IMG/VR virus record: IMGVR_UViG_3300030012_001754
Location: 1-31,771 of that record
Length of the DNA stretch: 31,771 bases
Direction: 5' to 3' (one strand)
Origin: a virus
Within the stretch, counting starts at the first letter, position 1. Every line of letters begins with the position of its first letter. The notes under the pieces were generated by a model, which did not search any database, had not been told where the DNA came from, and was given only the letters and a program-made list of their open reading frames with translations. Shown here piece by piece: positions 2,760 to 29,400 of this stretch. Position numbers and translations under genes: made by a program.

Positions 2760-3332
2760 ATGGAAAAGTCAGAAACTATTGGCAAGTTAACCCTTGCCTT
2801 ATCAAAGGTGCAGTCTCAATTAAGACCTGCTAAAGAAAACTCAAAGAACCCTTTTTTCAAGTCAAGCTATGCCGATCTAGGATCAGTATGGGACTCTGTT
2901 CGTAAGCTACTAGCAGAAAATGAACTTGCTATAATTCAGATGCCTACAGATGTGGGTGGTGTAACAACGATATTATCTCACTCTAGTGGAGAGTATCTAG
3001 CGTCTACTTGCTATATACCAGCAAAGGAAGACGCTCATGGTGTTGGTTCTGCTATATCTTACGCTAGAAGATACGCACTAGCATCGTTTGTAGGTGTTAT
3101 AACAGGAGATGATGATGATGGTAATATGGCAGTGAAGGGTAAATCTAATAAAGTTACTGCTAAAACTACATCTAAGCCTAAGCTAACTGACTCTCAGTAT
3201 AAGGGTATGATGAAGGCTATTGAAGATGGTAAAGGTAGTGTTGTTGAGCAGAAGATGGGTGGCTACACTCTAACTAAAACTCAACAAGATAACCTTAATA
3301 AAGTCCTTAAGTTATCTAAAACTTTAATGTAA
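2760..3332 (+). CDS. erf: ERF-family single-strand annealing protein
   Basis: Phage recombinase that would anneal complementary single strands, in the same functional class as P22 Erf and lambda Beta. Visible ERF hallmarks are an N-terminal helical region (about 1-25), a PFFKSSYADLGSVWDSV block (31-47), the strand-rich middle with LSHSSGEYL (72-80), and the diagnostic GSAISYARRYALASF (96-110) followed by GDDDDGN (116-122). The C-terminal part (from ~125) is a Lys/Thr linker and a small helical segment, as in other ERF proteins. At 190 residues it is close to the usual family length. The gene is followed after one base by a RecE-like exonuclease, the classical exonuclease/annealing pair, in the order annealing protein then exonuclease. 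The promoter at 2718 is directly upstream. Confidence 0.93.
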   Translation: MEKSETIGKLTLALSKVQSQLRPAKENSKNPFFKSSYADLGSVWDSVRKLLAENELAIIQMPTDVGGVTTILSHSSGEYLASTCYIPAKEDAHGVGSAISYARRYALASFVGVITGDDDDGNMAVKGKSNKVTAKTTSKPKLTDSQYKGMMKAIEDGKGSVVEQKMGGYTLTKTQQDNLNKVLKLSKTLM

Positions 3333-3333
3333 G

Positions 3334-4101
3334 ATGAGTTTAGATAATTTTATAAAGAAGTTAGTTGATGACTCTTTTTATTACTCTGACTACGAGTTTG
3401 TAACGAACTCGCAGTTGGGGTTAATAAAACAAGATGTCAGAACTTATAAGATGATGAGGGACAATCCTGACTTAAGAAAGGAAACGCTTCCTATGATATT
3501 TGGTAGGGCTTATCACGTTGCTATGCTTGAACCTAATGAGTTTAATCAGAAAGTAAAAGTATTTGACTCAACTACGAGGACTACTAAAGGTTTTAAAGAG
3601 TTTAAGGCTGATAACCCTAAAGCACCTACTATAATATTGCAGAAGGAGTATGATAAGATAATGAGGATGCAAGATGTTTTATTCTCTCATAGTGAGGTCA
3701 CTGATCTTCTTCAGTCTGAGGGTGAGAGGGAAATAGCTAACGCTTGGCAAGATGATGATACAGGAGTGTTTTGTAAGGGTAAAGCTGATTACAGAAATAG
3801 TAAGACTCTTATAGACCTTAAGACTACTGCAGATGGCAGTCATTGGGGGTTTTCTAACTCTTGTAAGAGATATGGGTACGATAGACAATCAGCCTTCTAT
3901 ATGGATGGGTTTGATTGTGATGAGTTTGTATTTATAACTCAAGAGAAAGAAGAGCCATACAATGTATCTATATTTTATGCTGGTCAAGATTTTTTAGATA
4001 GAGGAAGGGAAGAGTATAAGTACCTATTAGATACATACAGAAGATTCTTTATAGATAATGAGGAATCTATTGATGAACATTTAATTATGGAAACATTATG
4101 A
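3334..4101 (+). CDS. PD-(D/E)XK exonuclease, DUF3799/RecE-like
   Basis: Likely the 5'-3' exonuclease partner of the adjacent ERF protein, resecting DNA ends so that the annealing protein can load. It shows the order typical of the DUF3799 (exodeoxyribonuclease VIII-like) domain: FGRAYHVAMLEP (56-67) with a conserved His, SEGEREIANAW (128-138), GKADY (149-153) with Asp152, LIDLKTT (159-165) with Asp161 and Lys163 as the D-x-K active-site pair, and YDRQSAFYMDGF (182-193). The 255-residue length suits the isolated nuclease domain and not the much longer E. coli RecE. It overlaps the following HTH gene by four bases (ATGA). Confidence 0.9.
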   Translation: MSLDNFIKKLVDDSFYYSDYEFVTNSQLGLIKQDVRTYKMMRDNPDLRKETLPMIFGRAYHVAMLEPNEFNQKVKVFDSTTRTTKGFKEFKADNPKAPTIILQKEYDKIMRMQDVLFSHSEVTDLLQSEGEREIANAWQDDDTGVFCKGKADYRNSKTLIDLKTTADGSHWGFSNSCKRYGYDRQSAFYMDGFDCDEFVFITQEKEEPYNVSIFYAGQDFLDRGREEYKYLLDTYRRFFIDNEESIDEHLIMETL

Positions 4102-7552: not shown

Positions 7553-7856
7553 TGAGATTCGTGATCTCCTTATAGAAAAGAACATAGCTTATGGCAACTC
7601 CGTTTTCGATAAAGGTTTATTATTTGAGGTAGATCCTATGTACGCTATACAAGCTAGAATAAACGATAAACTCAATAGGATTAAGAGTAAAGAAACCTAC
7701 ATGAGTGAGAACGATCTTCTTGATGTAACTGGATACCTAATACTACTTCAGGTATACAAGGAGCATAAAGATGAGTGTAGGTATGATATACTATCTCAAA
7801 TAGACAAAGACTTTAGCTTAAAAAACAATCATTATAATAATGAGGAAGGAGCCTAG
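7524..7856 (+). CDS. Nmad1/DUF1599-like protein
   Basis: A 110-residue all-helical protein with the order of motifs of the nucleotide-modification-associated domain 1 (DUF1599) group: LLIEKNIAYGNSVF (15-28), DPMYAIQARINDKLNRI (38-54) with the conserved R-I-x-D-K-L-x-R segment, and DLLDVTGYLILL (64-75) with the Asp-x-x-Gly-Tyr helix. This group is often found in phages near nucleotide-metabolism or DNA-modification genes; its chemistry is not well established, but the Asp/Glu pattern resembles MazG-like nucleotide pyrophosphatases. It overlaps its neighbours on both sides (29 and 17 bases). Confidence 0.75.
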   Translation: MQEKIRKKCNEIRDLLIEKNIAYGNSVFDKGLLFEVDPMYAIQARINDKLNRIKSKETYMSENDLLDVTGYLILLQVYKEHKDECRYDILSQIDKDFSLKNNHYNNEEGA

Positions 7857-8283
7857 ATTTGAAAAAAATAGTGATAGAATCAGAGAAAAGGAAACTCTTC
7901 GTATCCTGCTAGAAGGTAAAGATTTAACCTTTACGCAGCTTGATAAGTTTGCTCCAGTAGACGCTGAAATTATAGATAACAAAACAATGGAGATCGTATC
8001 TCTATGTGAGGTAAAGACTATGAGCCTTAATATGTGTGACATAGAAAGAGCCAGAACATCTGTAAGGAAGATACAACATTGCCAAAAGGAAGCGTTGCAT
8101 AGAGACCTTCCATTATGTATAGCCTGGAGATTCTTAGATGGCATTGGTTATATATGGATGAGAGAAATAACAAAAGCCACAGTTGAGTGGGGTGGCATGA
8201 AAAACCCACGACCAGGATCTATATGGGATAGAGAGCTACTATTCTATATAGACCTAGATTTACTAACAATAATTAAATTTTAG
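7840..8283 (+). CDS. Putative PD-(D/E)XK nuclease, 147 residues
   Basis: The segment PVDAEIIDNKTMEIVSLCEVKTM (39-61, active residues Asp41, Glu57, Lys59) has the D-x(n)-E-x-K arrangement of the PD-(D/E)XK phosphodiesterase superfamily, with Glu16 or Glu20 as a possible upstream acidic residue and the core strand PLCIAWRFLDGIGYIWM (91-107) behind it. This would suit a structure-specific or Holliday-junction-type nuclease or a restriction-like enzyme. No family beyond the fold is recognised. It overlaps the Nmad1-like gene by 17 bases and lies in a block that also encodes a DUF1064-like nuclease. Confidence 0.65.
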   Translation: MRKEPRFEKNSDRIREKETLRILLEGKDLTFTQLDKFAPVDAEIIDNKTMEIVSLCEVKTMSLNMCDIERARTSVRKIQHCQKEALHRDLPLCIAWRFLDGIGYIWMREITKATVEWGGMKNPRPGSIWDRELLFYIDLDLLTIIKF

Positions 8284-10426: not shown

Positions 10427-10445
10427 ATAATTAAATTTTAATTAT
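10427..10445. repeat. Perfect AT-only palindrome at the end of the giant gene
   Basis: ATAATTAAA and TTTAATTAT form a perfect 9-base inverted repeat around one T, covering the stop codon (10438-10440) of the polyvalent protein gene. It lacks G/C and is unlikely to terminate by itself; significance is uncertain in AT-rich DNA. Confidence 0.35.
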
Positions 10446-13400
10446 CATCTACATTTACAATATCTTCTCTATATCTATTAAAATATCTAATGTAAGCTTC
10501 CTCTATAACAGCTTTACTAACTCTAGAGTTGTATAATATAGCTTGTATGTCCTCTCCAGATACTCCATTTAATCTAGCACCAGCCATAAGATCAGCCATC
10601 TTGTTTAATTCCTCATCAAACTTAGGGTTATCTTTAGCTGACTGAATTACAGAGAATCTATCTTTAAGGTTTTCTTTACCCATTCTGTCAACCATATCTT
10701 TGTATAAGAAGTTACCTTTAATGGCTAAACCTTTATTAACGTTTACTCTACTAACTCTAAGACCAAAGAATGCTAAAGCTTCGTATCCTGGAACTAGTTC
10801 TGAGTCTGCATCAAATATAGCCTCTCCAGTTCTAGTAATACCTCTAGTAACTCCTGGTTGTAGTTTTTGTCCTACATATACAGCCATCTTCATAGCTTTT
10901 GTTGGTCCAGAATCTGTACTGTTATATATCTTACCACCTTTGTTGGATACAGCATCCTGCATTACAATTCTAGTCATCTCATCCCCAAGGAATGGTTGAT
11001 ACATTCTTTCAAGAACTCTCATTGCAGACTCTTCACCAAGCTTAGTGTCTATATCATTAAATGATAATCTTATCATATCTTTAATATAACCTACACCAGA
11101 TACACTAGAAAAGTTTATGTAATCAAAGTAATGATCTCCCTCTGTTTGACCTTCAAACTGTCTAGATTCTAACATACCTTGCTCCATATAAGATATATTC
11201 CCTGAAGCGTCCCACTCAGGAAGTAGTAAACGCATCTTTCTTTCTTCTACCTCTTCATCATCAGTATCTCCACCAAAACCTAACATAGATCCTAAGAACT
11301 GTGCTGTATAAAGTTGAAGACCTTCAAGTAGAGTCATAGTAGCTATAGTACCAGCAAGTCTAGTAGCACCAATCTTTTTGATTTTAGGATTATTACTACT
11401 AAGCTCATCAAAGCCTAGCACAACAGCATTCTTGGAATTACGCAAAGACTCAGCTTGAAACGCAACAAAGGAACCTATCAAAGGAGACCTACCAATAAGT
11501 CTAATTATTCTAGGAATCTCGTTGTAGTTAGGGTATAGACTTATTATATTTTTAGCAGCTAATTCCTCTGCTGTTTTAGTATCTATACCAGCTTTTATAT
11601 ATCTAGACTTTTCGTTTAAGTACCCAAATATTTTCCAAACATCATCCTCAGCTTGATAAGCTTTCATAAACTTTTCATCAAAATACTTTATTGGCTTTCC
11701 TATACTTCTTTTAGCTTTAGATATAAGCTTTTGAATGTTACCATTACTCTCGTCTAAGTACTCAGATAAATCAAACTTAGAGTTTCCTATATCCTCAGCT
11801 ATACCTCTTATTTCTTGAAGTGATGCTGACGAACTTACAACACCTAGACCTACTAACTTTTCATATAACTCTACAAAGTCTTGGCTTTTCATATTTTTAA
11901 AGACTTGTATAGAAGTTTTAGCGTCCTGATACATACCACCTCTAAATCCTATGTGACCATTCATCATAGCAAAGGCTGTGTTACCAATAAGGTTTTTAAC
12001 GTGAGTACCAGGATTCCATACAGTCTTCATCTTCTTATTTAAAAGAACTGTAGACATATATAGGTTGTAAAGTTTTTGAACTTGTCCAGAATCTAAGTTT
12101 TCAGAAACTTGATTCATCACAGTAAACATTTCTTCGTCTACAAATTTACCTTCAAGCGTACCCCATCTAGACCCCTCAAGCTTATAAAAATTATCAAGGG
12201 TTTGAACATCAGATATAAATGTCCCTTGACCAATATCATTAAGATCTTTATACATTCTCTCAGCAGATATTGTTCTAGCTATCTTACTTACAGTATTACT
12301 GTAGTTATATAGAGGGTTATCTATCTCTCCCCACAGGTCTCTAATCTCTTTAGGTACAGCTTTTTTCTCTTTAAATATAGAGGTGACTCTAGATAAGTTA
12401 TCTAAAGACCCACTCTTAGAGAGGCTACGAAGAATACCTTTTTCTTCTGTTAACTTTCTAAAAGCAACACCACTAATTTCTTCTAGTCTTTTCTCTGAAG
12501 CGTTAGGATTATCTTTCTTAGCTTCCTGATATAAGAAGTCTTTAGCCCTCTTTATTATGTCGTTATCTGTCTGCTCCCAACCTTTAACTTCAAACTGTTT
12601 GTATGACCTTCTTACGTAGACTTCCATATTAGCGTCTACAGTGAACATCGTCTGACCCTCTATAAGACCTTCTCTAATTAATGTCTTACTAAGTCTATCT
12701 ATGTGCATCCTCATATCTATAAGTGCAAACTTAAGCTCTGAGTCTTCCATAGATCTAATATCGTCCATGTTATGTAGTAGGTCGTTAACTTGCTCTGAAG
12801 TTAGGTCGCTACCTTCCATGGCTTCTTTTAGTTTTTTAGCGTTCTCAGATACTCTAAGAAGCTCTACGTTAAGATTACCCTTACTGCGAACCATTATCTC
12901 TTTTATCTCCTCGTTAGAGTGAGTACCAAATGGTTTAGCTAATAGGTTTGTTAACCTAGTATCGTAAGCCTTTCCTTTATCAAATCCTAAGCTAGATAGA
13001 GCTTGACTTACATAACCACCTGCAGTATAGTCAGCATTTACTAAAGCTTCAGATATATCAAAAGCTACACTTGCTAAACCTGAGGTGTACACGTTAGTCT
13101 CTCCTTCCTCTTGAGGGGCTTGAAACCTAAGTGGACCAACCTTATCAGTTGCAGCCTTAAGCTCTGGGGTTAGGTTTATTACTGCGTTAGGGTATTCTTT
13201 TTTAGGTAAAGTAAACCTTTCGTTAATAGACTTAAATAGAATAGCACTTGTCTTATTGTAAAAATACATTATAGCCATATCCTTTATCTTTTCAACACTA
13301 TCGTAGCTATCTTTATACTCATCAAATTTATTGTAAGTTTTTTCAAATAACTCTCCAGTATTAGGATCTGTAAACTCAGTTCTTATATATGTATTTCCGT

Positions 13401-16400
13401 CTTCGCTGTTAAAAACATTTAACTTGGGTTTGTAAGGCTTTAAAGCGTCAAAATCAAACGTGTGAACGTCAGTATCTCCAGCAGTTGCCCTAAAGGTATG
13501 TGAATATCTTCTAGATTCTAAGAAGGCATCAGATTTAAGTGATTGGAAATCAGAAATATCTATTATACTTTCAACCCCATACTTCATCCCCTTAACCAAC
13601 CTCTTAAGTTCGTTGTTGATATTTTTAGGAACGATCTTGTTATAGAACTCTGCTGTTCTACCATCGCTGTGTCCTTGAATAATATCAGATTGTTTCCCAT
13701 TAACAAAGGCTATCTGATCGTACCCCTCTTTAGAGGCTTGATTGATAAGTTTTCTAATAGTTAAACCAACCCATAGGTCTGTTTGACCCCAAGGCATATC
13801 CCTTAAAGCATCTATATTTCTAGCTTTTTTTATTTCTAATTGTAAATATCTCTGGTAATTTTTTAAATCCTCAGTTGGTTTTGAATTACTTATCCTTTCA
13901 TTAATTTTTTCAAGTGATTCAGAAATTCTATAACTTCCACTTTTTACAATAAAATCTTGAACCCAAGGGTCTTTTATTAATGAAGTTTCATGTATTAAAT
14001 TACCAGAAGCATCAGTATCTAATACTCCATATACCCTGCCAAGACTATCAAACTCATTCTGTTCTTCTGAAGTAAGTGGGGGGTAATCTTTCTTAAACCC
14101 AATTTTCACTCCAGTTTTTTTCTTATCAGCAGCCCTTTGAGCCCAATCAGACTGCATCTCTTGAACGAAGAGAACTTTCTCCCCGTTAGGACCAACTCTA
14201 TCATCTACCCTAGCAGAAGCTATTAAGTTTTGACCAAGCTCATAGTAGTGAGGAGCTTTAAATATATCATCAGGAGACTTATCCCTAATAAGGAACTCTC
14301 TGTAGTTTTTACCTCCAGGGAGAGTTACTTCAGGATACCTATAAGTATCTTCTTTTCCTAGATATTTATTTGCTAAAATCTTAGTCTCTATCTGAGCCAT
14401 ATTAGTAGCTATCAGTTGAGAGACAACCTCCTTAGGAACACTCTTAACCTTAGCGTCCTTTTTATAAGCTTTAAGGAGTTCTAATAACCCCATAGTGTCA
14501 ACATCCTTTGAAGCACCTTTAACGCCTTTACCTATCTCCTTAACCCACTGTTCTGGTTGTCTGTTATTATCAGATAACATAGATAGGGATACTAAAGAGT
14601 TAGGTGTATACTCCATTTCGTATGTAGGAGCTTGGAATCTTAATCCTGTTCTTCTATCTGTAAATCTCTCATCAGAAGGTGTGGTCTTCTCAGCGTTCTT
14701 AGCGTAAACTAACCCACCAATTTGAACAACCTGCTCTGCACCCACAACTGGCATACCATCTAATCTATCGTAGAAGTACGAATGTCTAAATGGATTCATA
14801 CCAATTTGCGACCATGAAGGGTCATTCATTACGTCAACAACAATCTGTTTAGCACTCTCACCTCTAGCTTTAGCATTAGCTCCCTCTAATGGACTCCAAC
14901 TACCTAGCATTCTAGCAATGGTAGACTTACTTAATTTACCTCTAGCTATTCCTAATGAGACACCAGGATTAGATATAAACTCAACGTTGTTTATTCTAGC
15001 AACGTTTGTGTAAGACATAGCCTTACCTCTACCATCTTCGTGCACTGTAATAGCCCATATATTTTTGTTTGTGTAAGCAGGAATATCTAATCTCAATCCT
15101 ACAGGTGTTCCCTCTTCTATAGGTACATCTAACCTACCTTCAACCTTTGATCCTACAGCAGTTTCAATATCTTCTAGACTTGCAGGGTCTATAAATTGAG
15201 TTATAGGCTTAATAGGGCTGTTCTCTTGAACGATTTCTAAATACTCCTCTTGGTTTATCTTACCATCGAAATAAGACTGTGCAGCCTCTCTTACCTCTTC
15301 TCTTCTATTAGTGATAGCTAAATCACCTCTACCTATCTTAGATTCTTGCCACTGCACCTCTTCTACTTGAGGAGCCTGCATTCTAATACCACCTACTTGA
15401 TCAGATTTTATATCATAAAGTACAGTACCGTAGGTTGAGTTGTCAGCATCTTTATTATACCTAGAATCTACACCTTCAAACCCTAAAGCCTTCATTATAA
15501 GAGTCGAAGGACTATCAATATTATTTGGATCGTTTAACTTTGAGTTAATATCATTAACAAATTGACTTCTTTGCTCTGAAGTTAAATTAACACCAGTAAT
15601 AGATTCTACTTCTTTTATCTCTCTTCCAAATATCTCATACTTATTAACATCTCTATCAAAGGAATTATTATTTATAGACTTAAGAGCATCATGCAATTTA
15701 ATAGTACCAGGAGCTAAATTATAACTGTTTAAGTTAATAACAGAAATTCTTCTGTCATCATAAGCCTTAGCTCTATTAAGGTCGCTGAAAAAATAAAAAC
15801 CTGTACCAAAATGCCCAGTACTCCTACCTTGTCTCATTTTAGATTTATATTCAGCCTTAGTTGTTAAATCTCCAGACCTAAAAGCTAAACCAGATTTAAT
15901 ATCTAATAGTGTTTGTAATTCTTTAGAGTTTCTCGTAGATTTAATTTTCTGATCTAAGTCATTTACATATTCTTCTGCTACTTCAGGAGCCTGCATTCTA
16001 ATCTTCTCAGATATTTTTAAAGGAGTAGTAGATACTCCAGCCATTGGTGGCATTATCTGACTTCTTCTTGAGCTTATCTTACCAACACTACTCTTACCTG
16101 TAGTTTCTCCAATAATAGTATTAGTCATTGGATCTTCAGCTACATCATACCAAAATTCTCTGTTATCCAACCTATGTATCTTAGCTCTATTCCCTTTTTC
16201 AGAAACTATAGTAGTACCATAGCTTTCATACTCATCAGTTTTAATAGCTTTTACAGGACCATCTATCTCAAGAACAGCATAAACTTTATCAGTAACTTCT
16301 TCACCTCTAAGTTCTGGCTCTGTAAGTACGTTAACTAAAGCCTTTTTCATGCTACCTACATTAGGTTCTCCCTTCTTATTAAATTTTACTAAACTTTCAT

Positions 16401-19400
16401 CACCCATTGTGGTTTTGATAAAGTTTACAAAATTAGTTTTACTAGATCCAGACTCAAGAGATGATTTAACATAAGTTAAAAATTTATCAGAAAATAATCC
16501 TCGATCTTTAAACTTACTTTTTTTATTATCTAACTTATCCCAAACCTTTTCAATAACACTTTGTTCAAATTTAGAACTTGCTCTGTAAGGTTTTAATCCT
16601 AATTTTAACCCATCTCCTTTAGGGTCAACTTCATTTGCTGCATCTATTAATGCTTTATATACTTTAGGCTTACTTAATCCTATTTTAGATATAAAGTTGG
16701 AGGATGTAAACAAGTTAATTAAACCTCTAGACATAGCTGTATTTGAAAGTAGCTTACCTTCTCTAGCTGTGGTTAAACCCATATATATCTTTCCACCATT
16801 AGCCTCCAACATAGAATTTAATTGTTTAGCCATTGAGTTTGCAGCATTATCTGTTGAAGCCCAGAAATAACCATCTTCGTTATGCTTAAAAGTGTAATAT
16901 ATGCCACCCTTACCTTCAACTAGTATAGTTCCATCCTTGTCAATTATAGATCCTGAAAATGTAGCATCAGGAGAGTGTATCATCATCGTTTTACCCTTAA
17001 AATCTTGTATAGTCATACCACTAGTGATAAGACCTTCACCCTCCATTTGAGAGAAAGCTTCAGAGTTAATATCGTAAGTATACTGAACTTGAGTTCTCCT
17101 ATCAATAGCATCTAATTGATACTTAGGTAAAACAGTCTCTTCTGTATCTCCAACCTCAAACTCTACCCCTCCAACAGTAATCTTTCTACCATCAACTAAA
17201 GCACTAGCTAAATCTGTTCTTAAGTCAGATAAAGACATAGTAGCAAGGTCTATAGCTTCAACATTCTCAGGGAATGATGTCACGCCAATCTTAGTTAGAA
17301 TAGCTTTTATAACTTCTCTAAGCCTATTAAGTCTAGAGCCTTTATTCTTAAAGTGACCATAAGCAGCATCACCCATCATCTCAGCAAAAGCTTCTTCTAT
17401 CTGACCTTCTTTAGATAATCCTTCGTAGTTAGCCTTAGCCCAATCAAGGTAAGATCCCTTCATTCTACGACCATCCTTCATCACTCTTCTCTTAATATTA
17501 CCCTCTGAAACTTCTGCCTCTATTCTTTTATACAACTCAGGATCAGACTTCTTAATAAAGTCAACCATTGGGTGAATAATCTCGTGGAATAAAGTATTAC
17601 CACGAACAGTTTCAAGGTTTACGTATATAGTTTTGTCAACAAAGAAAGAACCTCTTTTTCTTTCAGCAGCATACTTTTCAGCTTTAGCTTCAGCTTTTTC
17701 CTCTGAGACACCATCTTTAATATATCTATCTTTTTGAATAGATTTTATCTGACCCTCCATAGCCTTACTATTTCTAACTATGTTAACGTTAAGACCACCA
17801 ATAGAACTAAGAAGTTTTAAAGCGAAGCCTAAAGCTCTCTTACGATCTTCAGTAACTCCATCAAAAAGTTCACTATCATATTCTGAATGATTCTCATCTA
17901 ACTTATGAACATTCTCTGAGTTAAAGTTCTTACCATAACTTGTTTTAGAAAAGTCAAGACCTGTGTGCATAGATATCTTTCTACCACCAACACTCATTAT
18001 ACTTAGAGCGTCCATCTTTCTAGCTCCTGGACCTTTAATGTTGTTTTTAGGATTTAAAGGAACCACAGATCCATCACTATACATCAGACCATCCTTTGAT
18101 GAGAATATAGAATCTTGACCAAACTGTCTTCCAAGATCTAAAGCTTTAGCATTATTTATACCTGTAACTAATAAGCTCTCTTCAGCAACACCATTATACA
18201 CACCTTGAACAGTGTAGTAAGTAGCTCCTGCTTCGTCTAACATAGATTTAAGCTTATCCATTCTAGAACTTCTTTCTTCTACTGTTAAACCTTCCTTCTC
18301 TGAAGTTAAAACGTGATAATCATTATTATCTATAACCTCTTTAGGTATATCATCAAGAGATTCTTTCTTAGTCTGTATAAATAGTTTATTGTTAGCAGGA
18401 AATAATTCACTCTCTAACATCTCTCCTTCCTTAGCAGCATCTCTCTTAGCCTCGAAGTCTTTTAAAGCGTTCTTAGCCTCGTTAAGGTTTTTAAATTTAC
18501 CCTCAACAACTTTAGACTTCTGAACATTTTCTCCTTTTACAGAGATAGACTTTTGACTTTCAGATACTACTACCTTAGGATTCTTACTCTTATCTTTTAT
18601 TTGTTTTTTAACGCTATCGTACTGCTCTTTAGTTTCTATTTTAGAAACTTCTACAGTTTCAGTAACGTCAGATAAAGATGTATCTTGACTCTGTGTAGCG
18701 TCAGCTATCTCTATACCTTTTTCTTTTAGTATAGCCTTAGATTTTGCTCTTGTAGCTTTAGTACTTTCAGATATATTGTATATAGATTTCTTACCCTCAG
18801 ATTCCATCTCAGCTGTTGCTTCAGATAAAGTGTTTAAGTCTTCTGTAGAAACATCTTCAGATGCTTCAACCTTATCTAGTATATTTTGAACAGCCTTTTC
18901 TTTCTCGAACATAACCTCTCTAGAAGCTACAGCATCAGGAGCATAGAAACCATAAACAATTTCTTCTAACTGTTGCTTTGCTACATCATTCATAGAAGCT
19001 TCCATGTTGATAACACCTCTTCTTATTTGATCAGCAACCTCTGGGTCTTTAACAAATTTCAAAGCTTTAGCTCTACTCATTTCTTGTTTAGAACCATCCT
19101 CCATAGTAAATACTGTAGAGATATTTTCATCTAGTATTTTAAACTTATCTAAAGACTTAAATATATAAGGAGTTGTGTGCATACCACCACCCATTATACC
19201 ACCAACAAGGGTAGCATCAGATATTCTTACAGCTAATTCTTCAATACCTTTATACTCTGCTGATCCAGTAATTAAATCTGTCATAGCGTTACTAAGTTCT
19301 GTGGCCCCCTCTGATAAACCTTCCACTCTAGTGCTTCTACCAAGACCTTTTATGAATCCCTCTGCTATCTCTCCTGGCTTTATTTTACCTAAAGCAAAAA

Positions 19401-20811
19401 CTCCTCTACTAGCATTAACAGCATCTAAAGTGAACTTTTCAAAAAACATCTCAGCTCCACCAGTTAAGACAGAGTTTAGTAAAATCATAGTATCAGATAT
19501 ATCTATATCACCTTTTAACCTTTGTTCTTTAAGCTCTAAAGATTTAAGACCACCTGCAGAAACACCAGCCAAACCAAGAGTAGCTTCACCAAGGCCTAAA
19601 GGTGCTGCTCCATACATAGATAATATTAAGGGTGCAGACTCAGCCAAAGCGTTAGTTGTTTGAAAAAAAGCGTCACCAAAGTTTCCTTCAAGTAAAGATT
19701 TAGTCATTGAGTCTTCTGCGTATACCCTTGTTTTTTCACGAACTTTATTCGCTTTATCATGTACTTTTCTAGCTAAATTACCTCCAAGATTTTGATACAT
19801 CAATCTTTGATAAGGATTTGTAGCTGAACCCATACCTTCTAAAAACTCTAAAGGACCAGCAGCTAGCAGATCTAAAGCACCAGCATAAAAAGACTGTGCT
19901 ACATCTCCCCACTGTCCACCAGACTCAGCTTGTCTTTCAAATAAGTTTTGTAAAGATGTAAGTACTTCGTTAGCATCAGGATTTACCACTTTAACATTTA
20001 CCTCTCCACTCTGTATTTTATCTACAAAGTTTTGGTTATACATGTTTCTTTCAAACTCCTTAACGCTAACTGGCTCGTTATTAATCTGAAGAAATTCTAC
20101 AGGCATATATCCCATATCAACTCCTTGAGCCTTGAACTGTTCTTCCCTCTGATTTGGAGGGTAGTTTACCATTATAAGATCAGCCTTAGCATTGTTATAT
20201 TGTTTCTTAGCTTCAAAGATCTTATCATCATTATCGACCATAAACTGATTAGCCTTATCTACCTCTGTAGTAAAGTAATCCTCTTCTAAGTCTTCAGTAC
20301 TAGTGATGTTTTTATACATCTTTTCAAAGAAACCAAGCTCTTCATCAGCTTTCTTTTCTTCTACTTCTTCCTGTAAAGATTGTTGTTTGATTGCTTCAAA
20401 GTTTGCTACCTCATCGTAGTTTAAACCTTGAGCTTCATAGAATGGTCTTAGTTCTTCTGCTTTAACCTGAGTGGACTTATCCTCATCAGATAGGTTGGCT
20501 AACCTTTCTTCTACACTAGCTTGAGTGCTTTCGACCAAAGAAGACTGACCATCCACCAAGGGTGATGGAGTATCCTCTGTAACCTTGGAAGACATCGCAT
20601 TTTGTAATTCTGAAGAATCTTTTTTTTTTAACCCAAGTAACTCTTTATATTCGTCTTCAGAACCATTGTAACCAGATTCTTTAAACAAACCATAAGAGTC
20701 TGCAAAAGCCTCAGCGTTATCAGATAACAAACTATAAAACTCATTTATATCTCCATTATACCCTGTATTAGTAAACAGCGTATGTGCGTCTTGTAATGCT
20801 TCTTCGTTCAT
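10438..20811 (-). CDS. Giant polyvalent virion protein (3457 residues), gp16-like ejection protein
   Basis: Probably injected with the genome. Two 30-residue N-terminal repeats carry LF-(T/E)-(T/S)GYNG (12-20 and 42-50). A Gly/Ala-rich hydrophobic region (about 290-560) could cross membranes. A DUF3293-like domain lies near 830-930. A zincin motif HEIIH (1076-1080) is followed by EEAFAEMMGD (1139-1148). An ADP-ribosyltransferase-like domain (about 1660-1805) contains HFGTGFYFFSD (from 1667) and a late LGFEGVD and TYGTVLYD. A domain with MNPFRHSYFYDR precedes residue 2058. The EMQSDWAQ domain (from about 2165; motif at 2218) is typical of phage polyvalent proteins. The C-terminal LPD38-like part has WNPGTHVKNLIGN (2932-2944) and a later AEDDVWKIFGYL. 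(R)(M/F)QAP pentapeptides at 1605, 1810, 2058 and 2562 lie between domains. No RNA polymerase DxDGD or clear transglycosylase is seen. Confidence 0.88.
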   Translation of the reverse strand: MNEEALQDAHTLFTNTGYNGDINEFYSLLSDNAEAFADSYGLFKESGYNGSEDEYKELLGLKKKDSSELQNAMSSKVTEDTPSPLVDGQSSLVESTQASVEERLANLSDEDKSTQVKAEELRPFYEAQGLNYDEVANFEAIKQQSLQEEVEEKKADEELGFFEKMYKNITSTEDLEEDYFTTEVDKANQFMVDNDDKIFEAKKQYNNAKADLIMVNYPPNQREEQFKAQGVDMGYMPVEFLQINNEPVSVKEFERNMYNQNFVDKIQSGEVNVKVVNPDANEVLTSLQNLFERQAESGGQWGDVAQSFYAGALDLLAAGPLEFLEGMGSATNPYQRLMYQNLGGNLARKVHDKANKVREKTRVYAEDSMTKSLLEGNFGDAFFQTTNALAESAPLILSMYGAAPLGLGEATLGLAGVSAGGLKSLELKEQRLKGDIDISDTMILLNSVLTGGAEMFFEKFTLDAVNASRGVFALGKIKPGEIAEGFIKGLGRSTRVEGLSEGATELSNAMTDLITGSAEYKGIEELAVRISDATLVGGIMGGGMHTTPYIFKSLDKFKILDENISTVFTMEDGSKQEMSRAKALKFVKDPEVADQIRRGVINMEASMNDVAKQQLEEIVYGFYAPDAVASREVMFEKEKAVQNILDKVEASEDVSTEDLNTLSEATAEMESEGKKSIYNISESTKATRAKSKAILKEKGIEIADATQSQDTSLSDVTETVEVSKIETKEQYDSVKKQIKDKSKNPKVVVSESQKSISVKGENVQKSKVVEGKFKNLNEAKNALKDFEAKRDAAKEGEMLESELFPANNKLFIQTKKESLDDIPKEVIDNNDYHVLTSEKEGLTVEERSSRMDKLKSMLDEAGATYYTVQGVYNGVAEESLLVTGINNAKALDLGRQFGQDSIFSSKDGLMYSDGSVVPLNPKNNIKGPGARKMDALSIMSVGGRKISMHTGLDFSKTSYGKNFNSENVHKLDENHSEYDSELFDGVTEDRKRALGFALKLLSSIGGLNVNIVRNSKAMEGQIKSIQKDRYIKDGVSEEKAEAKAEKYAAERKRGSFFVDKTIYVNLETVRGNTLFHEIIHPMVDFIKKSDPELYKRIEAEVSEGNIKRRVMKDGRRMKGSYLDWAKANYEGLSKEGQIEEAFAEMMGDAAYGHFKNKGSRLNRLREVIKAILTKIGVTSFPENVEAIDLATMSLSDLRTDLASALVDGRKITVGGVEFEVGDTEETVLPKYQLDAIDRRTQVQYTYDINSEAFSQMEGEGLITSGMTIQDFKGKTMMIHSPDATFSGSIIDKDGTILVEGKGGIYYTFKHNEDGYFWASTDNAANSMAKQLNSMLEANGGKIYMGLTTAREGKLLSNTAMSRGLINLFTSSNFISKIGLSKPKVYKALIDAANEVDPKGDGLKLGLKPYRASSKFEQSVIEKVWDKLDNKKSKFKDRGLFSDKFLTYVKSSLESGSSKTNFVNFIKTTMGDESLVKFNKKGEPNVGSMKKALVNVLTEPELRGEEVTDKVYAVLEIDGPVKAIKTDEYESYGTTIVSEKGNRAKIHRLDNREFWYDVAEDPMTNTIIGETTGKSSVGKISSRRSQIMPPMAGVSTTPLKISEKIRMQAPEVAEEYVNDLDQKIKSTRNSKELQTLLDIKSGLAFRSGDLTTKAEYKSKMRQGRSTGHFGTGFYFFSDLNRAKAYDDRRISVINLNSYNLAPGTIKLHDALKSINNNSFDRDVNKYEIFGREIKEVESITGVNLTSEQRSQFVNDINSKLNDPNNIDSPSTLIMKALGFEGVDSRYNKDADNSTYGTVLYDIKSDQVGGIRMQAPQVEEVQWQESKIGRGDLAITNRREEVREAAQSYFDGKINQEEYLEIVQENSPIKPITQFIDPASLEDIETAVGSKVEGRLDVPIEEGTPVGLRLDIPAYTNKNIWAITVHEDGRGKAMSYTNVARINNVEFISNPGVSLGIARGKLSKSTIARMLGSWSPLEGANAKARGESAKQIVVDVMNDPSWSQIGMNPFRHSYFYDRLDGMPVVGAEQVVQIGGLVYAKNAEKTTPSDERFTDRRTGLRFQAPTYEMEYTPNSLVSLSMLSDNNRQPEQWVKEIGKGVKGASKDVDTMGLLELLKAYKKDAKVKSVPKEVVSQLIATNMAQIETKILANKYLGKEDTYRYPEVTLPGGKNYREFLIRDKSPDDIFKAPHYYELGQNLIASARVDDRVGPNGEKVLFVQEMQSDWAQRAADKKKTGVKIGFKKDYPPLTSEEQNEFDSLGRVYGVLDTDASGNLIHETSLIKDPWVQDFIVKSGSYRISESLEKINERISNSKPTEDLKNYQRYLQLEIKKARNIDALRDMPWGQTDLWVGLTIRKLINQASKEGYDQIAFVNGKQSDIIQGHSDGRTAEFYNKIVPKNINNELKRLVKGMKYGVESIIDISDFQSLKSDAFLESRRYSHTFRATAGDTDVHTFDFDALKPYKPKLNVFNSEDGNTYIRTEFTDPNTGELFEKTYNKFDEYKDSYDSVEKIKDMAIMYFYNKTSAILFKSINERFTLPKKEYPNAVINLTPELKAATDKVGPLRFQAPQEEGETNVYTSGLASVAFDISEALVNADYTAGGYVSQALSSLGFDKGKAYDTRLTNLLAKPFGTHSNEEIKEIMVRSKGNLNVELLRVSENAKKLKEAMEGSDLTSEQVNDLLHNMDDIRSMEDSELKFALIDMRMHIDRLSKTLIREGLIEGQTMFTVDANMEVYVRRSYKQFEVKGWEQTDNDIIKRAKDFLYQEAKKDNPNASEKRLEEISGVAFRKLTEEKGILRSLSKSGSLDNLSRVTSIFKEKKAVPKEIRDLWGEIDNPLYNYSNTVSKIARTISAERMYKDLNDIGQGTFISDVQTLDNFYKLEGSRWGTLEGKFVDEEMFTVMNQVSENLDSGQVQKLYNLYMSTVLLNKKMKTVWNPGTHVKNLIGNTAFAMMNGHIGFRGGMYQDAKTSIQVFKNMKSQDFVELYEKLVGLGVVSSSASLQEIRGIAEDIGNSKFDLSEYLDESNGNIQKLISKAKRSIGKPIKYFDEKFMKAYQAEDDVWKIFGYLNEKSRYIKAGIDTKTAEELAAKNIISLYPNYNEIPRIIRLIGRSPLIGSFVAFQAESLRNSKNAVVLGFDELSSNNPKIKKIGATRLAGTIATMTLLEGLQLYTAQFLGSMLGFGGDTDDEEVEERKMRLLLPEWDASGNISYMEQGMLESRQFEGQTEGDHYFDYINFSSVSGVGYIKDMIRLSFNDIDTKLGEESAMRVLERMYQPFLGDEMTRIVMQDAVSNKGGKIYNSTDSGPTKAMKMAVYVGQKLQPGVTRGITRTGEAIFDADSELVPGYEALAFFGLRVSRVNVNKGLAIKGNFLYKDMVDRMGKENLKDRFSVIQSAKDNPKFDEELNKMADLMAGARLNGVSGEDIQAILYNSRVSKAVIEEAYIRYFNRYREDIVNVDDN

Positions 20812-23430: not shown

Positions 23431-26400
23431 TTATTTATCACTAAGTTCGCTCTTGTCTACATCAACGCTAGCTCCATAAAGGTTATGCTTATACTTAGAC
23501 TTATAAGGAGTGTCTTTATCAGTAGATAAGGTTGTCATCATATAACTACCCTTCATCTTCTCTCCCTCTACCTTTCCATCTTTAACAACGAATAAGAATC
23601 CATTAAAGGTTTCCTCTGAATAGTTGTTTGATATAACAAAGCCAATAGAAGAATTAGAAATAGAGTATGGATAACCTAAGAATACAGTAGAGCCATCAAG
23701 TCTCTGAAGATATAATTTATAATCTGTTGGTAAAACAAGACCACTATCTATGTTTGTACTTTTTTCACAAATAAAAACATTTCCAATTGTGTATATTGAT
23801 GATGTTACATCAGATATAATATTACCATCTCCTTCATCATACATTAAATACTCAGCACCAACAATCATTTGATTTGGCTTAATTGTCTGTCTAATTGGTA
23901 CAACATCAAAAAATGTATCTGCAGTAAATGTTCTAGTAATTGATTGACTAGATCCTTGATAACTACCAATTTTACCAACACCAAAGAACTCAGATCCATC
24001 ACCACGATCTTCTCCTGAAAAAGTATACCCTGCACGTGTAGACTGTACTTCCTCCATAGACGATACAAAAGGAATGCTAGAGTAGTGAATACCTTCCTTA
24101 GTTTTGTAATCTAAAACCTCCATGTGAGTTTTGTCACATAACAAATTAATCTGATCATCTAAGTATAATATAGTATTAGATATTACAGACCTTACTATTC
24201 TTAAAACACCTAAGTAAGAGCCAAAATTATCAATACCATATATCTTTACAATATCACCCTTCTTAACATCTTTAAAAAACTTAGTGTTAACACCTTGAAT
24301 GATAGCTATATCTTGATTCTCATTAAGATTTTGAATGAGTCCGTCAACACGTCTATATCCAATTTCTGTGCTTATAGTATTCTCATAAGCTTCTTTAAAC
24401 CCATTAGTTGGACCTTGAACAGTCTGTCCTATGTTTGTATACATAGAAGTAAACCACTTACTATCACCCTCTAAAGTTATAGAGTTATAAGCCTTTACAG
24501 CTGAAGGTTCTGCGTTAAATGGAAACTGTATTGTAGAGGCGTACTGAGTGCTATACAAATTATTATATAAGTTCTGATAATTATTAGGGTTAGTCATAGA
24601 TAAATCTGTATAGTATCTATCAGTAAGGTTATGCTTAAATAATCTACCTTCTTCAAACCCTATAAACTGTCTTCCTACTCTACCATAAAACTCTGGGTAG
24701 AAAGTATAGAAAGATGTCCACCTATTAGTTCTCTCATTAAAAGCTATAGTCTTAGCGTCATATATTTTTGTAGATTCATTATTTTGAAACTTATCTCTAT
24801 ACGAGTCCCATAAAACAGACTCTTCAGACCACCTTCCTTTTGAACTAAATATATCAGGGAAGGTAACTATATACTCATCATACTTAGCATCATATCCAGC
24901 AACAATCTTAAATATACTTCCTCGTTGATTTTCAGGATCATTCATCACATAGACCTCTCCAATATCTCTAAAGTAATCTCTCATACCATTATCAGAAATT
25001 ACTGTAAGACCATCAGCAGATAACCTTAATACAGCACCCCTCTTAATGTCAACAAAGTAAAACTTGTTATTGAACTTAACTATACTTTCAGGCTGAATAC
25101 AACAACCATACTCTCCAGCATACAGACTAACATAATCATCTATAACATTTGTTGATAGAGATACTAAGCCCTCTCCAGAGGCAGTATTAAGTATATCTTT
25201 ACCTACAAGAACTCTACCTACCTTATTCTCATGGAATATAATCAAGTCAGTATCTTTTGTATTTAAAGACTGTATAGAACCAAAGTCCTTGTTGTAATCA
25301 TAGTAAGGACTATTAGCTAAGTTAAAGCTAGATAAACCATTTATAGACGCAGTGCTAGAGTATGTCTCTGAGTAGTATACAGAAGCTTCTAACCTTCTTT
25401 CTCTTGCGTTTGTACTTATAACATTTATTCTACCTTTACTATAGTGATTAGTCTGGTGGAAATCATTAAGGTAATAATCCTCAGGGAAGAAGGTCTCGTT
25501 AGACGCTCCATTATTAGTTGTACCCATATTTCTTGGCTTAAGGTAAACATCACCACCCTCTATTGTTAAGACAGCAGGAACTGAAGAAACTTCTAAATTC
25601 AATCCTTGATTGACAGAATAGTCAGAGTTTTGAGCAGAATCACCAGAGTGAGACCTATTGAATTTACCTGCGTTTATTATAGGTCTTTTATCTCCTATCT
25701 CGTAGTAAACCATACTATCTTCAGGTAAAGTTTTCTTAGGTCTATATATCTCAACGATAAGGTTTTCATAACCACTACCATCTAAAGAGAATCCTGTATG
25801 AGCTATACTTACTGTGCCACCTCCAGAATGATTTACTGCTGTTTGCTCAGGATCATTAACTCTAATATAAAATCCTGAAGTAAGATTAGTTATAGTTCCT
25901 ATAGGAGAATCCTCATCTCCATCAACATAAAGATCATCACCAGCTATTTCTAAATCTACATAATCTGTAAATTTTTGTCTTCCATTTCCAGAATCAAAAC
26001 TTATAAATCTTACTCTGTCTCCCTTAACAAAATTATATTCTAATTGAGAGTTAGTAGACTCATTATAACTCCAGTTTTCTCCTTTTAAAGACTGAAGACT
26101 CAAGTACATTTGTTTATCGTTATTATCACCAGCTATAACATTTACAACAGTCATCTGTATAAACTCATCAACAGTAGTATTACCTGTGTAATACATCTGA
26201 TAGTTTGTAGCCCATAAAGGTGGTTTGTTATATATTTCAAGAGTTAACCTAGAGCTAGTACTTAATTCAGGACCTTCAGTCTCTGTGTAAAATGGATTGT
26301 AAGGTCTAGTACCATTTATCTTTTGATTATTTATTTCTACACCATAATCAGGACCAGCATTAACAAATGAACATCTATTTGTCTCGTCAAAGTAAGCTAT

Positions 26401-29400
26401 ACCAAAATTATGGAAAGCTCCTGTCTTAAAGGAAGATAAACCTAAATCTCCAGATATGAGGTTTGATAAATTGTTAGGCTTAAAATCTGAATCTTTGTCC
26501 CATTCTATAAATCCCCAAGTAAGAGCTGATGTTTGATTTTGAGTATTATATATAAACGTTATTTGTAAAAGTTTTGTAGAACTATCATAAGCTGCATCCT
26601 CGACATGACCAGTACCTCCAATACCTCCTGGTGTAAACTGACGATTTAAAACGTGAGTTACTAAACTTTCTCCTATAAAGTCTACGTCAGTTATACCACT
26701 AGCATTATATGGAGGAGCGTTAAAAGTTCCATGTCTATCTATGTCTCCAGCTCCAAAAGTATCTTTCGTAAAAGTCCAAGAATAATCTATATTAATAACC
26801 TGATTTCTATCAGGTAGTAAGTTTAAGTTTCCTAAGTACCACTTTTGCGTGTGTTTGGTGTTACCATTTGCAGGACCAAAATCAAATAACTCATCATCAA
26901 TATCTGTCCACCCACCTACACTTGACTCATCAGAAGTTGGTAAACTTTGAGTAGAGCTTGTTAAAGAAGAATTATTATCTGATTTAAACTTAGAAAAAGC
27001 TACAATCTTAGTGTTATCATACCCCTCTAAAACGTTACCATAAGCTAATCTATTATTTGATAGTATAGTTTGTGCCTTAGCTAATTTTGGTACAGCATCA
27101 AACAACTTGTCTGAATCAGACTTATCAACAAAAGGATATATACCATTATTATAAAAAGGTATAACTGAGGTTGTATTTTCCTCACTATATTCAAAAGCAC
27201 TATCAGCTATAAGCTCATTCTTTAACTTTTTAAGGTGTTTTATAAAGTCATTCTGAATAGTATCTACTAAGAAGAACTCTCCATCATTACCTTTTCTAGC
27301 TACAATCTCTATAGTATCAACATCTGATATAGTATCATCGTAATGAACATTAAGCATGTTAGCCATAGAGTTATAATCCTCAGCATTTACAGCTGAGTTC
27401 AAAGCAAACATAGGATCTATATTAATGTCTGATATAGCACTATAAGAAGTCATTTCTTCGTCTACATGCAGATACCTGTACTTAAACTGGAATAGGTTGT
27501 CTAGTATGTTATTTGTAGCAAAGCTAGAATTTGAATCTGGAATAACTAGTGGTCTATGTTCAGGCTGATGTTTTATAACATCAAAATATTTACTCTTCTC
27601 GTGGTAAGAACCATAGCTAATAAGAGGTGAATAAGCTTTCTCTTCTCCTATAACATTTGATGGGTCAGCATAAAGTATCTTACCTCTAACAGCTGTTGAT
27701 GATCCTGCCCATGGACAATCAGTTATTATACCTACAGCATTTTGATCTCCAAACTTGACAGGGTTTCTTGTAACTGATGACACAGAATCCTCAACGTAGT
27801 TAGTCTCTAACTGAATGGTAGCACCACTTATAGAGTTTATCTGATAGTAGTAAGGAAAACCATTATCAGCTTGTATACCTATAAAGTCTCCTACAAAACT
27901 ATTTAAGCCATGATTTGTAGATGAGGCAGTAATAGTACTACTACCATCACTTACAGTAAAAGTAATTCCTGTAAATGGTTTTCTAACTATGCCAAGAACT
28001 TTAGAGTAACCATTTATACCTATAATATTTGGATTACCTATAGTCTGTGATACTTGAGCGTATATATGATCACCTGCCTTGAAAGGGTGATTATTTTGTC
28101 CAGTACCTATGAAGACAGTACTAACCTGACTCTTATAATAAAAGTCTTTAAATATAAACTTAGGATTAGTTATATTTCTTTCGTTCTGCTTTCCTAACTC
28201 AACGTTTATCTTTCTAGGTCTGTTAAGGTTATCTGTAAAGTATAAAATATCATCTACCTTGTCTACTCCTGTTATCAAGTGTGAAGCACTAAAGTTTAAT
28301 ATATTATTCTCTTCAAGGTTACTAGATGGTCTATCATCCTGATAAACTGTCTCTATAGAGTCTGACATTAAGTCGTACTCTAGTATGCAGTCGTATTTTT
28401 TAGTACCCTCTTGGTTAACTACAAAGTAGTAAAGCTTATTATTTGGCTTATCTTCATATGTACCTATACAGGTGTAACCTAAAGATAGTATTGGCTCTAC
28501 ATGACTTGCAGCCTTTAAAGGGTTTTTTACAATCCTTCTAGAGGCTCCAGTGTAAGCTCTTGAAGTATTTAAGAATGAAGATCTACCCTGCTCAGATGCT
28601 AAGGATGTTTTTTCCCCTAAAAGGTTTATCTCTACTGCTGGAGTTGATGAAGTTGCTAAGTTGACTTTTTTAATACTAACATTCCTAAGCCACCCTGAAA
28701 AACCATAAGCACTACCTGCTGTAGCTTGAGCTGCAGAAAATCTTATAATATTACTATTATATGATGATCCAGTTCTTATTCTTACTCTTAAAGGATTTCC
28801 TGAACCATAATCTAAATAATCATTATTAATATCTTCGTAAGTTACACTTTTGCTAAGCATTATATTCCCCTGCCCCCAAGATGTATCTATTACATTATTT
28901 TGCGTTAAAGGTCCTGTATTGTCTCCTAAATCAACCTTAATACCTTCAAGTTGAGGAATTTTAAACGAAGTTTCAAACTCTATCTCGTAGACAGTATTAG
29001 ACTCTAAAGTTACAGATTTTGTTAAAAAGTGATCATCTTCAACCTCATCGTTGGCTGAAGAAGAACCCCAACCAGTACTACTATTAAAATTCCAATTACC
29101 ATTTGAACTAAAACCACCATTATCAGTTGTAGTAATTCCAGTGCCAGGTAGTATGTCGCTTCCTATACTTTCATCTGTTCCTGGTTGTGAAGGTAAAGAT
29201 GCAATATTCCAGTAGGTTATCGAGTCAGAAAGAATATTACTTATATCATTAATATTATTATTTGCTGCAAACTCCCAGCCTGAAGATCCAGAAATGACTG
29301 TAACGGTAAATCTTAAACCATTATTTATATCATTATTTTGCTGATCTTGAAATTCAAAACTAGATATATCAGGATCATTAATATTAGTAAAAAAATTAAA

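Follow-up and report, generated by a model that had tools for sequence, protein, structure and literature searches.

Why should one short peptide recur at successive domain borders of a giant phage protein? The question is raised by the IMG/VR virus record IMGVR_UViG_3300030012_001754, of which positions 1 to 31,771 were analysed as a single stretch of 31,771 nucleotides (nt), hereafter the window. Its minus strand carries an open reading frame (ORF) for a polyvalent protein in which an initial annotation, made from the letters alone, had noticed the pentapeptide R(M/F)QAP four times and had read it either as a protease processing site or as a modular exchange linker. Few phage weapons are as large or as poorly understood as polyvalent proteins, whose domains change too fast for ordinary annotation. 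Our analysis indicates that the pentapeptide is very probably the joint between exchangeable effector cassettes, which are arrayed in a giant polyvalent protein probably carried in the virion. The parts of this protein are as follows.

10438..20811, minus strand: giant polyvalent protein ORF, 3457 amino acids (aa), a single uninterrupted frame
17125..20811, minus strand: conserved N-terminal part, residues 1–1229, holding a DUF3293-like stretch (residues 845–902) and the zincin
17572..17586, minus strand: zincin HEIIH motif, residues 1076–1080, a putative metallopeptidase assigned by motif
17116..17124, minus strand: degenerate fifth junction, core KYQ (residues 1230–1232), RFQ in orthologs
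16000..17115, minus strand: cassette A, residues 1233–1604, bounded by junctions
15985..15999, minus strand: junction motif 1, RMQAP (R1605)
15385..15984, minus strand: ART-like cassette, residues 1610–1809, ART assigned by sequence pattern only
15370..15384, minus strand: junction motif 2, RMQAP (R1810)
14641..15369, minus strand: cassette C, residues 1815–2057, conserved in the relatives L003, L007 and L009
14626..14640, minus strand: junction motif 3, RFQAP (R2058)
13129..14625, minus strand: EMQSDW cassette, residues 2063–2561, with a hypervariable interior and a 21-aa conserved tail ending in DKVGPLRFQ
13114..13128, minus strand: junction motif 4, RFQAP (R2562)
10438..13113, minus strand: C-terminal anchor, residues 2567–3457, conserved in homologs

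The pentapeptide in the window protein and its homologs

The four in-frame copies (RMQAP at residues 1605 and 1810, RFQAP at 2058 and 2562) are present as annotated, and they lie at the claimed domain borders, one pair flanking the ART-like module and the other the EMQSDW module. Their flanks resemble one another roughly as described, except that the first copy is preceded by SEKI and not by Gly. A further junction had been passed over: a degenerate KYQLD at residues 1230–1234, which reads RFQLD in L002, L003, L006 and L008. The count of R.QAP expected for a protein of this composition is 0.009, and [ILV][RK][FMYL]QAP was present at all in 2 of 2000 shuffles of the window protein. Some four-letter gapped pattern occurs at least four times in 39% of such shuffles, and at least two identical 6-mer pairs occur in ~7%. 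Because R.QAP and the hexamer patterns were chosen after the fact, the repeat in a lone protein is weak evidence and its significance rests on the homologs. Chance repetition, which the single-protein shuffles do not exclude, is rejected through them.

Scans of IMG/VR with the N-terminal, motif and C-terminal regions as queries yielded about 20 homologous giant proteins, not all of them complete. Common to them are an N-terminal part with an HEXXH-type motif and the C-terminal anchor; the variable region in between was read as modules, and every junction was listed with 26 residues on either side. In this alignment, which the initial annotation had proposed as a check, the motif lies at cassette borders, with [RKM]xQ in 66 of the 69 catalogued junctions, mostly as I/L-R-F/M-Q-A-P. 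The most frequent cores are RFQ (32) and RMQ (14), the following two residues are AP in 26, and the residue preceding the core is Ile or Leu in 57 of the 69. More distant relatives keep R/K-x-Q and have a free middle residue (RSQ, RAQ, KAQ, REQ). The strict motif occurs 43 times in the cassette regions, which make up one third of the residues, and nowhere else.

The catalogue comprises 19 upstream tail classes and 18 downstream head classes, which give 38 combinations; eight tails are found with more than one head, and eight heads with more than one tail. One tail, ending in TPLKISEKIRMQ (or a close variant), illustrates this: the next module is the ART cassette in the window, cassette C in L003, the EMQSDW cassette in L002 and L008 and a TLFNEPNPETAD cassette in L006. 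The position of cassette A holds another cassette (EFYPNFD...) in L001, L004, L005 and L007. Judged by its sequence, the stretch from the zincin to the C-terminal anchor is a combinatorial array of cassettes: each cassette consists of one domain and a C-terminal I/L-R-x-Q, and the next opens with A/V/T-P, in many cases with acidic residues after it.

The cassettes of the window itself are assigned by pattern only; the relative L007 has LPD23 above the cut-off in the same array. Pfam and PDB gave no useful match for the ART-like cassette, a search of GenBank phages with the EMQSDW cassette gave no match, and NCBIfam, PADLOC and PDB sequence searches returned nothing useful. In the window and in the orthologs L001, L002, L003, L006, L007 and L008, a hypervariable stretch of the EMQSDW cassette (alignment columns ~455–598) directly precedes the near-invariant 21-residue tail, and mosaic exchange seems to occur inside this cassette too. 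A methyltransferase-like cassette (VLDIGGSENSWA...), recognized by pattern only, lies in the interval between zincin and anchor in L026 and L035, bounded by IREQ and LREQ. ParB-like patterns occur in two different motif-bounded cassettes, at L008:11348-12034 and L003:10796-11125 (QGNHRLLAAKALG and VIDGYNRIHDA), for which Pfam gave no convincing match.

The idea that the motif is common to all giant phage proteins was rejected. The giant proteins of H66, vB_Pun_Y3 and Planktothrix Pag-Yong1 do not contain the repeated motif, and the related, cassette-free protein of Cellulophaga phi13:2 (1990 aa) has neither HEXXH nor the motif.

Cassette exchange at the DNA level

DNA blocks shared between homologs were defined at an identity of at least 80%. 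Their ends fall no more than 21 nt from the motif in 65 of 241 cases, whereas 2000 random placements gave 11.8 on average and never more than 28. The ART cassettes of the window and L024 are equal in length and 95.9% identical over 630 nt, and their 300-nt flanks are at about the random level (24.7% identical upstream, 33% downstream). The identity begins at ATTAGAATGCAGGCT, that is, ATT AGA ATG CAG GCT (I-R-M-Q-A). In L025 the ART cassette is absent and a single junction represents the empty site, whose 600-nt flanks match the L024 flanks at 94.5% and 94.3% identity. Cassette C is found at the same length and with 85–89% DNA identity to the window in L003, L007 and L009, with unrelated flanks in L003 and L009, and a whole EMQSDW cassette between motif copies is the difference between L001 and L005. 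Because DNA similarity starts or stops within the 15–18 nt encoding the motif, every exchange is in frame at a module border. These genome comparisons show that related phages gain, lose and exchange whole cassettes in frame at the motif. The reading as a modular exchange linker is strongly supported by the base-resolved exchange, by the occupied and empty pair and by the 38 tail–head combinations.

Some crossovers fall several codons upstream of the motif, as a DUF3293-like cassette at L009:10757-11338 indicates: its end, DKVGPLRFQAPQEE, is the tail belonging to the unrelated EMQSDW cassette.

The short motif sequences that the cassettes share would serve as the sites of exchange, through homologous or homeologous recombination. 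Two adjacent genes of the phage itself would probably drive the exchange:

2760..3332, plus strand: ERF-family single-strand annealing recombinase, candidate agent of exchange (PF04404, E 4.2e-22)
3334..4101, plus strand: PDDEXK nuclease (DUF3799), candidate partner exonuclease (PF12684, E 1.6e-25), the partnership being suggested by adjacency

An Erf/Exo pair of phage D3 recombines diverged sequences with an efficiency close to that of lambda Red (PMC3945230).

Conservation of the peptide and of its DNA

Several observations weigh against an exchange joint that is selected as a peptide. The remaining 176 of the 241 block ends are not at the motif, many of them lying inside the variable EMQSDW cassette, and 15–18 nt is little sequence for homologous recombination. 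The motif partly guided the cataloguing of junctions, and motif-free ones could be under-counted; the base-by-base DNA comparison is independent of it. Several junctions are degenerate (REK, RKK, REQ). The AlphaFold2 models (mean pLDDT 41 and 46) are too poor to show exposed linkers: the motif copies fall in low-confidence stretches of the first model, which proves nothing because 73% of that model is below 50. Finally, the DNA encoding IRMQAP is nearly uniform at junctions with unrelated tails (the second copy in L024 has CAA), and the Pro codon within proteins is CCT in 36 of 36 cases. Part of the conservation may therefore be copied DNA.

Carried to its end, this last point would make the motif a scar of recombination, a short DNA homology at which cassettes recombine and which has no function as a peptide. 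The recurrence of ATTAGAATGCAGGCTCCT behind unrelated tails, the invariant Pro codon and the mapping of exchange to the motif are consistent with such a scar. By contrast, for motif copies within one protein codon usage predicts 26.9 shared Arg codons in 46 comparisons and 29.0 shared Gln codons in 52, and the counts found are 19 and 20. Moreover, divergent relatives retain R/K-x-Q with a free middle residue (KAQ, RSQ, REQ), and other polyvalent proteins contain a related peptide whose Arg codons are not homogenized. Similarity among the Arg and Gln codons does not exceed the prediction from codon usage, so the copies are more than a repeated stretch of DNA; a simple DNA repeat is rejected for these codons within proteins, the near-uniform IRMQAP DNA notwithstanding, and a scar without peptide function appears quite unlikely. 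Because these codons are not homogenized and distant relatives keep R/K-x-Q, we infer that the peptide itself is selected as well, either because an exposed linker is required or, with less certainty, because the chain is cleaved after Gln and effectors are thereby freed in the host.

The related peptide emerged from a survey of polyvalent ORFs with LPD23 in bacterial genomes and IMG/VR (91 clusters). The signature [ILVM]R[FY][QRS] occurs 97 times, compared with 39 expected, and [DN][IV]R[FY] occurs 70 times, compared with 16; control patterns in the survey were not enriched. The signature often abuts LPD23, as in NDIRFR before FIGEKGA, NDIRFS before LAGERGA and DDIRFQ before FAGEKGA. Its last residue agrees within a protein in 74 of 114 pairs with non-homologous flanks (35 expected) and, when the four largest contributors are dropped, in 30 of 54 (18 expected, p 0.0006), although these statistics ignore the tree and shared lineage could produce part of the pattern. 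The Arg codons at the survey sites are not homogenized (31 of 119 alike, 33 expected), and the two following positions show a moderate excess. That the same kind of motif varies concertedly in other polyvalent proteins suggests that the joint rule may be general.

The survey also bears on a structural explanation, in which h-R-F/M-Q is the last strand of the upstream domain, kept for folding, and recombination next to it is merely tolerated. Such a role would fit the choice of M or F at the second position, which mostly tracks the upstream tail class, as well as the conserved tail ending in RFQ that the EMQSDW cassette retains and the many ART-like modules of the survey that end in ...NDIRF. 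However, the motif follows 19 tail classes without evident similarity, on different domain types, and both enrichment and concerted variation persist once ART-like tails are removed (72 signatures compared with 37 expected; agreement of the last residue in 43 of 56 pairs compared with 20.5). An ART tail as the whole explanation is rejected, and we consider a structural tail improbable. The pentapeptide is best described as an exchange joint under peptide-level selection, which makes the observation more significant than one protein could show.

Processing, the virion and known systems

If the motif were instead a processing site, it would be cut, probably after Gln, by the protein's own zincin, by another phage protease or by a host protease, and one gene would yield several effectors. 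Within proteins the peptide rather than the DNA is conserved, and the R/K and I/L substitutions are conservative. The Q/R/S variant tends to be uniform in each protein, as a lineage-specific protease would require, and an HEXXH domain is embedded in the same chain. Passages of PMC5512222 and PMC12810830 give precedents, with autoproteolysis by such domains proposed by Iyer et al. and with the P1 proteins DdrB and DarA processed. In contact-dependent inhibition (CDI), the VENN peptide marks where exchange occurs, and processing depends on it too (PMC9424206). On the other side, the N4 virion RNA polymerase, which bears such a domain, is packaged uncut according to a passage of PMC5512222.

The residues H1076, E1077 and H1080 of the zincin motif are invariant in two alignments of homologs, and most relatives have HEIIH plus a conserved Glu. 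The region has no Pfam match, and fold searches gave no zincin match: Foldseek found no confident match in the PDB and, among viral models, two matches with E < 0.001 that are uninformative for the zincin. The first His of HEXXH is Tyr in L025 (YEIIH) and Gln in L053 (QEIIH), a replacement that probably leaves the putative metallopeptidase inactive in both. That L053 and L025 keep IRMQ/IKMQ despite this loss argues against processing. A coupling of His loss to motif decay in these two was set aside as anecdote, because L024, with its zincin intact, also has a decayed junction.

The initial annotation had further suggested looking for a phage protease with the fitting preference. No Peptidase_S78 prohead protease was found in nine relatives and no recognized capsid protease among the ten proteins of one relative, and in five near-complete genomes the full motif was absent from the other virion proteins and RxQAP was not found outside the giant proteins. 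A prohead protease that cuts all virion proteins is rejected on these results, although a divergent protease could still act. Processing is a tentative possibility. A wider proposal is that polyvalent proteins are generally self-cleaving polyproteins in which a lineage-specific junction peptide (h-R-[FYM]-Q in the window family, h-R-[FY]-S or -R in others) serves both as exchange point and as cleavage site of the embedded metallopeptidase. We regard it as somewhat more doubtful; if it is true, phages can build sets of interchangeable effectors within one gene and free them by self-cleavage.

The giant protein is probably carried in the virion, because its C-terminal region matches phrog_22602, a virion structural protein (E 4.5e-27), and its anchor is related to structural proteins of Cellulophaga phi13:2, phi19:3 and phi18:3. 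The cassettes may act in the host; both points are less certain than the exchange mechanism. A second giant ORF at 23431-31770, minus strand, open at the window edge, has a weak match to the crAss muzzle C-terminal domain and a match to phrog_14478, a virion structural protein, and a PDDEXK_14 phage endonuclease lies at 7840-8283, plus strand (E 1.4e-11). The relative L061 encodes, at L061:7810-10221 on the minus strand, an 803-aa protein with a Por secretion-system C-terminal sorting domain (E 1.7e-11); this points to a Bacteroidota host and to a phage protein that may be exported through type IX secretion.

A joint-marking peptide offers a simple rule for dividing polyvalent proteins into modules and names the point where phages exchange effectors. 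It also gives defined residues at which to test the old conjecture that polyvalent proteins are cut into separate effectors.

Among known systems, the window protein resembles the polyvalent proteins of phages and conjugative elements (Iyer et al. 2017, PMC5512222), which passages of that paper describe as very large, multidomain, equipped with a zincin-like domain and effector-like modules, and encoded in a structural context. In its 3457 residues, four separately bounded cassettes are fused to the zincin and to the N-terminal and C-terminal parts. A junction peptide and motif-bounded exchange were not found in those passages; the motif and the base-resolved exchange are additional here. A zincin-like MPTase domain is the common hub of phage polyvalent proteins, whose effector domains are of the LPD, ART, kinase and ParB kinds and which enter the host packaged together with the phage DNA.

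Gene order, together with weak crAss muzzle-C and T7 gp14-like matches adjoining the giant gene, suggests an ejected cargo comparable to gp45–gp50 of Crassvirus (PMC10172136), although membership of Crassvirales is not established. The matches to crass virion modules are crAss_MUZ_C at E 2e-4 (weak, below the cut-off) and CrAss_Ring_1 at E 0.018; the major capsid protein matches SU10_MCP, and the closest named relatives include Cellulophaga phi13:2, filed under Pachyviridae. The Crassvirus cargo includes an RNA polymerase, and neither cleavage nor a junction motif was found in PMC10172136. The 'PLxRFG domain-containing' giants of Pseudomonas phages such as H66, whose record notes virion mass spectrometry, are giant virion proteins, and the LPD23/zincin module type is common to H66 and L007. 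They differ in that the window protein has no such NCBIfam match and H66 has no repeated RxQAP.

The closest parallels in mechanism lie in bacterial toxins. As in the exchange of CdiA-CT at VENN (PMC3150448, PMC9424206), a short conserved peptide is the point of effector exchange, and as in the exchange of Rhs-CT at PxxxxDPxGL (PMC3150448), effector ends are swapped at a delimiting peptide. CDI differs in its motif, in belonging to a secreted bacterial protein rather than a phage and in having one C-terminal toxin rather than several tandem internal cassettes, and no immunity gene was seen in the window; Rhs differs in motif and protein class, and its exchange is C-terminal only. With its internal tandem cassettes, RxQAP joints and conserved C-terminal anchor, the window array is not a CDI or Rhs polymorphic toxin, but it works like one.

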